Source: Paraphotobacterium marinum (GTDB taxonomy: Bacteria > Pseudomonadota > Gammaproteobacteria > Enterobacterales > Vibrionaceae). Taken from it: a DNA stretch of 64,000 nucleotides. The stretch is taken from NCBI RefSeq assembly GCF_002216855.1, contig NZ_CP022355.1:992001-1056000 (forward strand), read 5' to 3'. Each line of letters opens with the position of its first letter. Within the stretch, counting starts at the first letter, position 1. This document shows, piece by piece, positions 59,174 to 63,777 of this stretch. The notes under the pieces are model-generated. The model saw only the letters and a list, made by a program, of their open reading frames with translations, searched no databases and was not told the DNA's origin. The translations under genes and the position numbers were made by a program.

Positions 59174-60592
59174 ATGATTAAAACGAGATTTGCACCGAGT
59201 CCGACAGGTTTTTTACATTTAGGCGGTGCTAGAACAGCATTATACTCTTGGCTGTATGCCAAAAAAAACAATGGAAAATTTGTATTGCGAATTGAAGATA
59301 CTGATCGTGAAAGATCTACTTCGGAAGCTGTTGATGCAATTTTAGATGGAATGCGATGGTTAGGGTTAGACTGGGATGAGGGACCTTTTTATCAAACAGA
59401 TAGATTTGATAAATACAATAAAATAATAGATGAATTAATTGAAAAAGGTCTTGCTTATAGATGTTATGCTCCTAAAGATCTCTTGGATACTATAAGAGAA
59501 GAACAGCAACACAAAGGAGAAAAACCTAGATATAATCCTAAAGATCCCCGTGTAATTTCAGCAAATGAAAATATGGATGCAGATAAACCTCATGTAGTTC
59601 GTTTTAAAAATCCAAGTAGTGGATACGTAGAATTTGATGATGTAGTAAGAGGTAAAATCAAGATTGCAAACGACGAATTAGATGACTTGATTATTAGAAG
59701 AACGGATGGAAGTCCAACTTATAATTTTACGGTTGTTGTTGATGATATTGATATGAATATTACTCATGTTATACGTGGAGAAGATCATATTAATAATACA
59801 CCTCGCCAAATAAATATTTATCATAGCTTAAATGCCAACCCTCCAGTTTTTGCTCATTGCTCAATGATTCTTGGTGATGATGGTGCTAAGCTGTCCAAAA
59901 GACATGGCGCTGTTAGCGTATTGCAATATAAAGAAAACGGCTTTTTACCTGAAGCTTTAATTAATTACTTAGTGCGCTTGGGTTGGTCACATGGAGATCA
60001 GGAAATATTTTCCAAGGATGAGCTGATAGAATTATTTGATTTAAATGGAATTAATAAATCTGCTTCCGCTTTCAACACAACAAAGCTTTTATGGTTAAAC
60101 AATCATTATATAAAAACTCTTCCATTAAATAGAATAAAGAAAGAATTGCTTGGTTTAGTTCAAGATAACGATTTTATAATTATTGACGATCTTAAATTGG
60201 ATAAAATATTGTCAAAAGTTCGTGATAGAGCAAACACTCTCTTGGAATTAAAAGGCCACATCAGGTATTTTTATGAAAGTATTACTCAGTATGATGAAAA
60301 AGCTGCAAAAAAACACTTAAGGCCTGTTGCTAAGGAATATTTGGAAGTTTTTTCCCGAAAGTTGGATGAACTTAAGAATGATTCTTGGAATGAAGAAGCT
60401 ATACAAGAAGTTATTGATTCCACTTGTAAGGATTTGGATATAGGCATGGGAAAATTAGGAATGCCTTTGCGTGTTTCTTTAACAGGGCAAGGTCAATCCC
60501 CATCAGTGAGTTTTATAATGGAGTGTTTGGGAAAAGAAGAGAGTCTAAATAGAATAAGCAATGGAGTGAATTTTATAAAATGTAGATCTTAG
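59174..60592 (+). CDS. gltX: Glutamyl-tRNA synthetase
   Basis: Class I synthetase. 472 aa. HIGH motif in [24 protein letters not shown] equivalent in [13 protein letters not shown], and [13 protein letters not shown] is the gammaproteobacterial form. Full length (E. coli 471). 82 bp follow before the next gene, with a TATAAT-like box at about 60636. Confidence 0.98.
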
Positions 60593-60674: not shown

Positions 60675-61922
60675 ATGAATTTTTTTTTAACAGTTTTGAT
60701 TCATTCAGCTGATTTAGATAATGATGAGTTTATAGAATTCTGTAGGACTTTTAATATAAAGTTTGTTACATTTAACGATGTAACAAACATACCTAGTACC
60801 AATTTTAATTCAATTTATATCTCGACTAATTTTACTAACAAAGTGACTCAAAAAGAGCTTTTTAAGTTTATAAATACACATAAAAATTTACTTTTTTTTA
60901 AACAAATTCACATTGATGCTTTTTCAGAATTAAATACCATTGAAGTACCTAACAATATAAATTATATAGAATTCATTAAAATAATTTATGATGCTAAATT
61001 AAAGTTAAGGAGTTTCGAGTGTAACTTTGTGTTACAGAAAAACTTTAGATTTAGAAGTCTGGTTGGATCTAGTCCAGCTATACAAAAACTTCGAAGAGAT
61101 ATTGATTTAACAAAAAAAAATGCAAAACTTATTTTACTCCTAGGTGAGAAGGGTACTAATTTTGAAGGTATTGGCAGAAATATTCATTATAGATTGTATA
61201 AAGACTCTAAAAAATATCTATATTTGAATAGTGAAGAGCAATTGGAGTATGAATTAAAAAAAGAAAAATATGGTATTATTCAAGTTGAATACGACTTCTA
61301 TGTGAAAAGACAAGAAATTTTTGAACAATATAACCAACATAACTATGTAATAAATTCTAAAATTGATGGATGTTATTCTAACTTAAAATTAGATCAAATT
61401 ATAAAGATTCCTGCTTTAATGGATCGAAAAGAAGATATTCATTTATTAATGGATGAGTACTTTGAAAGATTTTTACATATTTATAATAAAAAATATTTTT
61501 ATGATGCTGAACTCTTAAATTTCATGAAATCTTATCATTGGCCAGGAAATGAATATGAGTTTACGGAGTTTCTTTCTCACCTCTTAAGTAATGTAAAAGA
61601 TGAACAATTAAACCTAACATGCTTACCAGTTGAATATTTAGCAGATTGGATATATTTTTCTCTTAATAATTCAAACAAAACACCTTTTGATATTTCAAAA
61701 CTTTTTTCAAAAAAAAATAAAGGCTTACGAGAATCTGTTGAAGAATACGAAATTAGCTATATTAAACAAGCATTAGTTGAATCGAATGGAGTTGTTTCCA
61801 ACGCAGCTAAACTTTTAGGGTTAAGAAGAACAACACTAATTGAAAAGATGAGGAAGTATCAAATAAAGGTGTTAAAAAATAAATATAATAACTCTTTTGT
61901 ATCTTTCAAAACAAATTTATGA
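60675..61922 (+). CDS. Degenerate FlrA/FleQ-type regulator lacking the sigma-54 ATPase core
   Basis: 415 aa. An N-terminal FleQ-like receiver remnant (1 to about 115) is followed by FRSLVGSSPAIQKLRRDIDL, the start of a sigma-54 AAA+ domain. The Walker A reads GEKGTNFEG instead of GExGTGKE, and about 70 residues that should hold GAFTGA and the Walker B D-E pair are missing or unrecognisable. The domain resumes at IPALMDRKEDIHLLMDEYF and YHWPGNEYEFTEF. The C-terminal Fis-type HTH is well kept (VVSNAAKLLGLRRTTLIEKM), and RRTTLIEKMRKYQ is typical of FlrA/FleQ. It cannot act as a sigma-54 activator; DNA binding may persist. Coupled by ATGA to the next gene. Confidence 0.78.
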   Translation: MNFFLTVLIHSADLDNDEFIEFCRTFNIKFVTFNDVTNIPSTNFNSIYISTNFTNKVTQKELFKFINTHKNLLFFKQIHIDAFSELNTIEVPNNINYIEFIKIIYDAKLKLRSFECNFVLQKNFRFRSLVGSSPAIQKLRRDIDLTKKNAKLILLLGEKGTNFEGIGRNIHYRLYKDSKKYLYLNSEEQLEYELKKEKYGIIQVEYDFYVKRQEIFEQYNQHNYVINSKIDGCYSNLKLDQIIKIPALMDRKEDIHLLMDEYFERFLHIYNKKYFYDAELLNFMKSYHWPGNEYEFTEFLSHLLSNVKDEQLNLTCLPVEYLADWIYFSLNNSNKTPFDISKLFSKKNKGLRESVEEYEISYIKQALVESNGVVSNAAKLLGLRRTTLIEKMRKYQIKVLKNKYNNSFVSFKTNL

Positions 61923-62398
61923 ATTCTTTTATATCCCTTAATTATGTAGTTATTTTAATTTTTTTAGTGTTAATTCTTATTGCTTCTTTAATATATAAAA
62001 AAAAATCATCATTAAAAATTAATGATAAAAACTCTCAATTTAGTTTATTAGAAATGGTGCATATTAATTACCGACATTGTTTTAAGCTTATAAAAAATGG
62101 TAATCAATTATATTTGTTTTATACAAATAAAAACAAAACTTTCTTTGTGATAAATTACTCTTTATTTGAAGAAGATATTTTATTAATTAATTCACTAAAT
62201 AAAGAAACTAAATATAATAAAAGAACCTATTTATCAATATTCCCTAAACCTCAAAATAAATTGTTACAAATAAAAAATTATTATTTCCTCAATAAAACTG
62301 ACTTTATATGTTCACTAACCCTATTTAAATTAGAAATAGATATTTTTATATCATTAACTAAAGTAAGTGTTATTTCTAAAAAAAGATACTTTGAATAA
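61919..62398 (+). CDS. Small membrane-anchored protein of unknown function
   Basis: 159 aa with one N-terminal span (residues about 8-27, YVVILIFLVLILIASLIY), a lysine-rich stretch, and a soluble domain rich in aromatic, Asn and Lys residues. Start overlaps the stop of the FlrA-like gene by 4 bp. The pattern of a span followed by FSLLEMVHINYRHCFKLIKN resembles FliO (a flagellar export protein) only weakly, and the C-terminal extension does not. I do not recognise it with confidence. It could be an eroding flagellar gene or a partner of the regulator. Confidence 0.6.
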   Translation: MNSFISLNYVVILIFLVLILIASLIYKKKSSLKINDKNSQFSLLEMVHINYRHCFKLIKNGNQLYLFYTNKNKTFFVINYSLFEEDILLINSLNKETKYNKRTYLSIFPKPQNKLLQIKNYYFLNKTDFICSLTLFKLEIDIFISLTKVSVISKKRYFE

Positions 62399-62489: not shown

Positions 62490-63116
62490 ATGCTTGAAGT
62501 AAAAAATATCAAATATAAAAGATATGATGAATGTATATTTCAGGACATTAATATGGTTCTTTCGCCTGGTGATTTGGCAGTCATTAGGGGTGATAATGGT
62601 TCAGGAAAAAGTACTCTTTTAGGTTGTATTTCAGGACTCCATTCTGTTAGTGATGGCAATATCTTTTGGATGGGAGAAAATATTATAAATATTTCCCATT
62701 ATTTTAATAATTTACATTTTATAGGCCATAAAAGTGGACTTAAACCAAATTTAACTGTTTATCAAAACTTAATTTTTTATGCATCGATTACAAATCCAGG
62801 AAAATCTGAAAATGAATTAAAAAAGATATTATATGATTCGTTTGTAAAAATAAATCTTGATATATCATGTCTTAATGAATGTCTTGGAAAATTATCATTT
62901 GGGCAACAACAAAAAGTTTCATTAACTAGATTATTTTTTTGTTTAAGGAAATTATGGATTTTAGATGAACCTCTTACAGGATTAGATTCTTTAAGTAGAC
63001 AAGTATTTTTAGAGAGTGTTGTGCAACATTTAAAATACAATGGTTCAGTTATTTTTAGTACACACCAAAAGATAGAAGAGCTTAATTGTGCCCATACAAT
63101 ATGGTTAGGTATATAA
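62490..63116 (+). CDS. ccmA: Cytochrome c biogenesis ATP-binding protein CcmA
   Basis: ABC ATPase that releases haem-loaded CcmE from CcmCD. 208 aa. Walker A GDNGSGKSTLL, signature LSFGQQQKVSLTR, Walker B LWILDEPLTGLD, H-loop STHQ. Begins the ccm operon; ccmB starts 1 bp after. Shows that the cell keeps c-type cytochrome maturation. Confidence 0.95.
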   Translation: MLEVKNIKYKRYDECIFQDINMVLSPGDLAVIRGDNGSGKSTLLGCISGLHSVSDGNIFWMGENIINISHYFNNLHFIGHKSGLKPNLTVYQNLIFYASITNPGKSENELKKILYDSFVKINLDISCLNECLGKLSFGQQQKVSLTRLFFCLRKLWILDEPLTGLDSLSRQVFLESVVQHLKYNGSVIFSTHQKIEELNCAHTIWLGI

Positions 63117-63117
63117 A

Positions 63118-63777
63118 ATGTATTGGATTAGTTTCTTAAAAAAAGAGTCAAATTTAGTTACTTCATCTAAAAATGATATTTTTATGCAAGCTGGCTTTTT
63201 TTTGACTTTTTTAGTTATTTTTGGCATTTCTTCAGGATTTGAGCAAACCGGAGATATGGTTAAAGTAGGATTAATTTGGTTTTTAATGATGTTTTTATCT
63301 CTTTTAAATAATAATCGTCTTTTAAAAGATGATTTTAATGATGGTTCCTTAATATATTTAATTCTATCCAATTACTCTTTACCAACTTCCGTTCTAATAA
63401 AGGTTCTATCAAATTGGTTTTTTTCTAATATTGTTTTATTTATTTCTATGCCTATTGTTATGCTGTTTTTAGGCTTAAACATGAATTTAATTATACCGAT
63501 TATAGTTAGTATTGTGCTTGGCTCATGTACTATTTCGTTATTATCAAGTATAGGAACTGCTTTAACTCTGTCTATTTCTAAAAACACTTTTTTGCTCTTT
63601 ATTATTATGCTTCCATTATATATACCTGTATTTTTATTAGGTTTAACAATGGTTAAACTTGCAAAATTTGAACTTTCATATTTGGGGGTTTTATATTTAA
63701 TGCTAGCTGTTTTAAGTGCCAGTATAGTTATTATTCCTTATTTAGTGGCAATTATAATACGTATTCATTATGATTAA
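63118..63777 (+). CDS. ccmB: Cytochrome c biogenesis membrane protein CcmB
   Basis: 219-aa membrane partner of CcmA with six hydrophobic segments. Begins WISFLKKESNLVTSSKNDIF and includes the conserved LLKDDFNDGSLIYLILSNYS and LSSIGTALTLSISKNTFLLF. Full length and intact. Confidence 0.93.
   Translation: MYWISFLKKESNLVTSSKNDIFMQAGFFLTFLVIFGISSGFEQTGDMVKVGLIWFLMMFLSLLNNNRLLKDDFNDGSLIYLILSNYSLPTSVLIKVLSNWFFSNIVLFISMPIVMLFLGLNMNLIIPIIVSIVLGSCTISLLSSIGTALTLSISKNTFLLFIIMLPLYIPVFLLGLTMVKLAKFELSYLGVLYLMLAVLSASIVIIPYLVAIIIRIHYD

Follow-up and report, generated by a model that had tools for sequence, protein, structure and literature searches.

A FlrA ortholog without its sigma-54 and ATPase parts in Paraphotobacterium marinum: a candidate regulator of the lateral flagellar system

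Downstream of gltX in the marine bacterium Paraphotobacterium marinum lies a gene for a protein of 415 aa that resembles FlrA of Vibrio and FleQ of Pseudomonas but from which most of the ATPase core is missing. This raises the question of whether the gene is in decay or is maintained for its DNA-binding end and, in the latter case, which genes it would regulate. The window, that is the whole stretch of 64,000 nucleotides analysed here, corresponds to C1:992001-1056000 of a genome of 2,593,992 bp in 3 contigs, and the G+C content of its final 4 kb is 25.6%.

An flrA ortholog at a shortened locus

The features of the window on which the argument turns are as follows.

59174..60592, forward strand: gltX, the upstream flank of the scar
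60675..61922, forward strand: flrA-like gene, 415 aa from an ATG start, a FlrA/FleQ ortholog without the sigma-54/ATPase engine
60675..61010, forward strand: N-terminal 112 aa, located where FleQ has its REC-like domain and too diverged for confirmation
61143..61169, forward strand: degraded Walker A motif GEKGTNFEG, residues 157-165, by alignment to relatives
61260..61400, forward strand: remnant of the AAA+ alpha/beta core, residues 196-242, with two blocks deleted
61401..61640, forward strand: AAA+ lid (SD2), WPGN kept (AAA_lid_14, E=1.8e-9)
61719..61868, forward strand: FlrA-type Fis helix-turn-helix (HTH), ...LGLRRTTLIEKMRKYQI (HTH_8, E=1.3e-11)
61919..62398, forward strand: 159-aa ORF, possibly a very diverged FliO, overlapping flrA by 4 bp (ATGA)
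62490..63777, forward strand: ccmA and ccmB, the downstream flank of the scar

The assignment of the ORF at 60675-61922 as an flrA ortholog is supported by its place in the tree, its locus position, its Fis HTH and its lid. In a tree of 24 rows the protein groups with 15 FlrA proteins (support 98/99) on a very long branch, and LafK-type, FlrC, NtrC-like, LuxO, TyrR-like and VpsR-like proteins all fall outside this clade. Alignment by hhalign against 17 FlrA sequences gives E=3.8e-31 over residues 121-398, and the solved structures closest to the protein include FleQ and FlrA, among others, so that the membership in the FlrA/FleQ family claimed from the sequence alone is supported. The two Pfam matches, HTH_8 and AAA_lid_14, are over their cut-offs, and that to Sigma54_activat is borderline and confined to residues 129-195 (18.8 bits, or 20.0 to 20.5 bits with neighbours, cut-off 20.2); the signature of the FlrA-type Fis HTH, RRTTLxEKMRKY, is present. 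The FlrA sequences used throughout come from the loci of 29 relatives, of which 18 entered the domain alignments, 17 the hhalign comparison and 15 the tree, with near-duplicates, partial pieces and non-FlrA proteins left out; full-length FlrA of the relatives has 480-525 aa, counted from the first start codon.

The surroundings of the gene are strongly shortened, as gltX, flrA, the possible fliO and ccmA lie within 1.9 kb here and are spread over ~57 kb in relatives. In all 19 tabulated Vibrionaceae genomes flrA (placed by its HTH match), fliO and ccmB are collinear on one strand, with 12-14 kb from flrA to fliO and 17-23 kb from fliO to ccmB (60 kb in one), and in 12 of the 19 gltX lies upstream and in line within 60 kb. 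These 19 were drawn from 26 genomes, from which the P. marinum genome itself (G000), G001 (no ccmB match), G010 (no FliO match) and four genomes of other families, one collinear (G061) and three not (G065, G069, G070), were set aside. In one relative (G051) a mechanical listing yields 63 ORFs of at least 60 aa in the 57 kb between gltX and ccmA, which by eye include flg, flagellin, flrABC, fli, flh and che genes. No flrBC genes follow the flrA-like gene at this locus, and the sole FlrC-like protein among the full-length bEBPs of the genome is the one of the lateral cluster. The best reading is that the flrA-like gene and one more ORF are the remnants of a deleted polar flagellar and chemotaxis locus of ~57 kb. 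In G010 no flagellar-looking ORF of at least 100 aa is seen beside ccmA, which suggests another loss of the locus.

The second ORF of this remnant, at 61919-62398, is possibly FliO. It has an N-terminal hydrophobic stretch and matches TIGR03500 with E=0.0025 and 17.8 bits, under the cut-off of 55.25; this is the only match to the family in the genome at E<=1, and a relative (G001) shows a chance match of similar E. Against the 65 proteins of a relative's locus phmmer ranks FliO first with E=0.11, and blastp ranks FlhA first. No support for FliO is given by hhalign, nor by a homemade profile of the relatives' FliO, by which the ORF ranks 5 of 80 window ORFs.

Parts lost, parts kept and signs of maintenance

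The Walker A motif reads GESGTGKEV in the relatives and GEKGTNFEG in the 415-aa protein, in which Phe163 takes the position of the lysine, so that its description as degraded is accurate. The reported shortening of the GAFTGA and Walker B region is equally clear: at 40 columns where the FlrA of 17 or more of 18 relatives is conserved, spelling GAIP, FTGA, RGRFELA, GGTLFLDEIGDMP and FREDLYRLNVFP, the protein has no residue. The first of the two blocks deleted from the core comprises GAFTGA and Walker B, and the second FREDLYYRLNVFP, including the arginine finger. Mapped onto FleQ, K180 falls on Phe163 and the sensor II residue R363 on Tyr294, while Walker B (with E246) and R300 lie inside the deleted blocks. 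The statement that the AAA+ core has been lost applies to the alpha/beta subdomain SD1, which is gutted, and has to be withdrawn for the lid SD2, which is kept. With the arginine finger, the Walker A lysine, Walker B and the sigma-54-contacting loop gone, the protein is not expected to hydrolyse ATP or to open promoters of the sigma-54 type. A role as an ordinary sigma-54 activator is thereby excluded, and an action without sigma-54 would follow from the missing residues.

Conservation is uneven along the remainder of the protein. Compared with 18 FlrA proteins, it keeps 2 of 6 conserved aligned positions in the N domain, 15/36 in the linker and Walker A region, 7/30 in the core remnant, 18/35 in the lid and 21/26 in the HTH; the HTH, with a mean identity of 54% and the FlrA recognition helix kept, was rightly called near-canonical. 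The N-terminal 112 aa fit a REC-like domain in length and place, but their mean identity to the 18 FlrA is 11%, and hhalign with this part alone matched nothing credible. The sequence-only reading had also called for a structure prediction; an AlphaFold model of the 415-aa protein, built from 6 homologs, is poor (mean pLDDT 48).

That a frame of 415 codons is open, as had been pointed out, has a chance of ~1e-18 at the local composition, and the five other frames over 60675-61922 hold 21-65 stops each. When the FlrA consensus was decayed neutrally to the observed identity over the 332 positions outside the HTH, 200 simulations gave a mean of 22.7 stops with a minimum of 12, and none of the 200 was free of stops, as compared to 0 stops observed. 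The identity of the HTH to the consensus is 0.54, against 0.23 expected and a simulated maximum of 0.40. The view that the open frame betrays selection is supported by the simulations and by the conservation of the HTH, with the limit that the simulations exclude a long neutral decay, not a recent death. The codon score of the whole gene lies about 7 sd over nucleotide shuffles, and that of each of six segments 2.1 to 3.1 sd, the core remnant having 2.1 sd; among 37 window genes the score is the fifth lowest, and the codon positions differ only weakly in G+C, least of all in the N domain. For an estimate of dN/dS no genome of the same genus or otherwise close was found in the family listing, and a scan of contigs gave five sphingomonad loci.

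A gene in late decay, whose job was lost with the polar flagellum and which died too recently to have gathered stops, would account for the loss of the polar locus and of all CheW domains, for deletions that took the parts needed for the lost job, for the extremely long branch in the tree, for the unrecognisable N domain and for a codon score that is low for the window. This is unlikely unless the decay is very recent, as it is countered by the absence of stops from 415 codons, where every neutral simulation had at least 12, by an HTH far better kept than the remaining protein and by the codon score of the core remnant, which still exceeds that of shuffles. Between the two outcomes that the sequence-only reading had left side by side, a repurposed DNA-binding regulator and a late decay, the first is favoured because of the open frame, the coding-like codons, the well-kept HTH and the FleQ-type boxes at the lateral promoter described below, and the second is disfavoured.

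Sequencing indels as the origin of the odd core are hardly credible. Other genes of the assembly are indeed split, namely rpoN near two T runs and uvrD-like, polA-like and fadB-like genes (names by eye; L043 208-1963 and 2156-4865, L042 15302-17416), as if the assembly had several small indels; by contrast, none of the six frames, as read, contains the residues missing from the flrA-like gene, and those on either side align in a single frame. The rpoN gene (C1:420252-420726) is read in two frames, with the breaks near T runs in the part for the DNA-binding domain, and these are either assembly indels or a recent lesion. A frameshift of rpoN as the cause was rejected as a main argument, given that other genes are split too and that the LafK-type and NtrC-like proteins look intact.

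FleQ-type boxes and the remaining flagellar system

The genome paper of P. marinum reports all flagellar genes to be present and no flagella to be seen by TEM (PMC5649133). These genes form the lateral set. A single FliP is encoded in the genome, in a lateral (Laf) cluster at C1 ~9-44 kb, where genes for a LafK-type regulator, MotY, fliEFGHIJ, fliMNPQR, flhBA, flagellin, sigma-28, the motor and flg proteins are recognised by eye. The best family of the flagellin is the lateral flagellin LafA (314 bits, under the cut-off of 365), the 298-aa protein adjoining LafK is closest to MotY, and fliN directly adjoins fliP with no fliO between. The LafK-type regulator (L002), whose name rests on its place beside MotY and fliE, has GAFTGA and looks intact; it belongs to the same superfamily as the 415-aa protein but groups with FlrC, not with FlrA (100/99). 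No FlhF over the cut-off and no CheW-domain match is found in the genome, so that a complete-looking lateral set stands beside an absence of CheW domains, possibly a flagellum without chemotaxis.

FleQ binds a box GTCAAT-N2-ATTGAC, with an RR contact, and tandem boxes are a typical feature of its sigma-70 biofilm promoters (PMC10723142); an alternative form of the box is GTCaNTAAAtTGAC, and in P. fluorescens the motif is described as a poor predictor of FleQ sites (PMC6120874). The strict box GTCAAN4TTGAC occurs four times in the P. marinum genome, as compared to three for a reversed-pattern control. One copy lies inside a phoH-like gene and one on contig C2, 30 bp upstream of a rhodanese-like gene (names by eye), and the other two lie together:

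C1:16791-16804 and C1:16844-16857: two strict boxes, 53 bp apart, in the divergent promoter of the lateral system

This site is located between motY/lafK, which run leftward with the start 93 nt off, and fliM, which runs rightward 240 nt off. A first-order Markov model of the 398-bp motY-fliM region yields a mean of 0.0004 sites, with one site in 84 of 200,000 runs and two in none.

Lateral-type fliM is found in 51 of 247 genomes of the family, P. marinum included, and the lateral loci of 29 of the 50 matching relatives were fetched, 28 of them usable (L103 is cut by a contig end). All 28 have motY in the same divergent position, and the equivalent promoter lacks a strict box in every one of them. 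The looser GTCAN6TGAC occurs in three relatives, always within motY, and boxes with one mismatch in five (one of which also has a loose box), within motY, beyond motY or at the start of fliM. A weighted scan of the lateral region finds no near-consensus sigma-54 promoter here and one each in 2 of the 28 relatives, so that no change can be read from its absence here.

In the window looser box matches number 22, against a shuffle mean of 35. Autoregulation was considered and rejected, with no box of up to two mismatches in front of flrA. Among the relatives, 13 of 25 loci (29 less L011, L023, L024 and L028) have GTCAN6TGAC within 320 nt after flrA, compared to a shuffle mean of 0.1, and in 9 of these 13 the site extends into a terminator-like hairpin, read by eye. 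Five flrA loci have the post-flrA box outside a hairpin, three more have a box upstream of flrA, and a box upstream of flhA is present in 3 of 19 relatives (19 usable of 20 fetched), all of one genus. As an operator of Vibrionaceae FlrA the box is only weakly supported.

Taken with the domain losses, the paired boxes suggest, tentatively, that the FlrA remnant has been maintained as a DNA-binding regulator that controls the lateral system. The polar locus would have been deleted, leaving flrA behind with one further ORF, and the sigma-54 and ATPase parts would have been lost while the HTH was retained and the protein kept as a DNA-binding regulator. In its most likely role the 415-aa protein would then bind the pair of predicted boxes between motY-lafK and fliM, so that lafK and the export genes would come under its control, and it may act as a repressor or a sigma-70 modulator, as FleQ does at its biofilm promoters with tandem boxes. 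We infer binding to the boxes, the direction of regulation and a response to c-di-GMP alike. Another protein could use the two lateral boxes, and the intact LafK-type regulator could suffice for the lateral system. The remnant may instead be a functional sigma-54-independent regulator with other targets, such as surface or metabolic genes that it would activate or repress with sigma-70, and the lateral boxes would belong to another protein; the strict box ahead of the rhodanese-like gene would fit this, as would the effect of V. cholerae FlrA on non-flagellar genes such as frhA (PMC6890996) and the loose predictive value of the FleQ motif (PMC6120874). This alternative is rather unlikely, since two of the four strict boxes in one lateral promoter are very improbable by chance. 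Very improbable in turn is that the protein modulates the LafK-type regulator by forming mixed oligomers through its lid rather than acting at DNA sites of its own: the lid is kept and an intact LafK-type protein is present, but the HTH is the best-kept part, and much of SD1, which forms the contacts of the AAA+ ring, is deleted.

Related regulators, c-di-GMP and meaning

With FlrA and FleQ the 415-aa protein shares its place in the tree, its locus, the Fis HTH, the lid and the residues matching R144, R185, E330 and R334 of FleQ; unlike them it lacks GAFTGA, Walker B, the lysine of Walker A and the arginine finger, and the polar target genes are gone. bEBPs that lack GAFTGA are already known, and with its lack of GAFTGA and its kept HTH the protein fits the description of a sigma-54-independent bEBP. 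VpsR and TyrR likewise have the architecture of the sigma-54 family without GAFTGA, and they act in sigma-70 mode. The genome also encodes a VpsR-like (L005) and a TyrR-like (L004) protein, named by eye, which fall outside FlrA in the tree, and the former keeps the P-loop GDSGVGK. Contig C2 of this genome (L044 4646-5950) encodes a second bEBP without GAFTGA, VpsR-like by eye. NtrC of Caulobacter and Rhodobacter is also a bEBP without the sigma-54 loop and yet regulates, with sigma-70; the deletion spans eight residues in Caulobacter and is larger in Rhodobacter, whereas most of the ATPase core is lost here, and ATP binding is essential for Rhodobacter NtrC (PMC10274813). The same source mentions a V. 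cholerae bEBP of the sigma-70 sort (PMC10274813).

FleQ contacts c-di-GMP through R138, R144, R185, R334 and E330 in cis and R151 in trans (PMC10723142). R144, R185, E330 and R334 are kept in the 415-aa protein as R127, R168, E261 and R265, while Gln121 stands, by distance, at the position of R138 and Pro134 at that of R151. The kept residues may be taken as a hint only, because about half of the conserved positions in the lid survive in any case and because R144, R185 and R334 have a role with ATP as well. The genome has two GGDEF matches, a REC-GGDEF protein with an intact GGEEF (C2:1073158) and a degenerate one, CsrD-like by eye. Two GGDEF proteins make up a small c-di-GMP network for a member of the Vibrionaceae. 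Since one protein with an intact GGEEF exists, sensing of c-di-GMP by the 415-aa protein is possible. That the polar activator, its ATPase engine lost, has become a c-di-GMP-sensing regulator of the sigma-70 type, rewired in cis to the lateral promoter, is an unlikely extension of the reading as a regulator of the lateral system.

In V. parahaemolyticus the loss of the polar flagellum turns on the lateral flagella in liquid, and LafK is able to replace the polar regulator, while in A. hydrophila a mutation of flrA is described as without effect on the lateral flagella (PMC4481668). Because of this response in V. parahaemolyticus, silent lateral flagella in P. marinum would call for an extra brake, for which the 415-aa protein is a candidate. 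In the open literature searched, none of the titles listed concerns the flrA-like gene of P. marinum. An ortholog maintained despite the loss of the arginine finger, the Walker A lysine, Walker B and GAFTGA would reveal the half of FlrA/FleQ that can be dispensed with and, if its link to the lateral promoter is true, would exemplify how regulation is rewired from one flagellar system to another. If the c-di-GMP-sensing regulator also proves true, one lineage would have only lateral flagella, governed by the half of its old polar switch that binds DNA.
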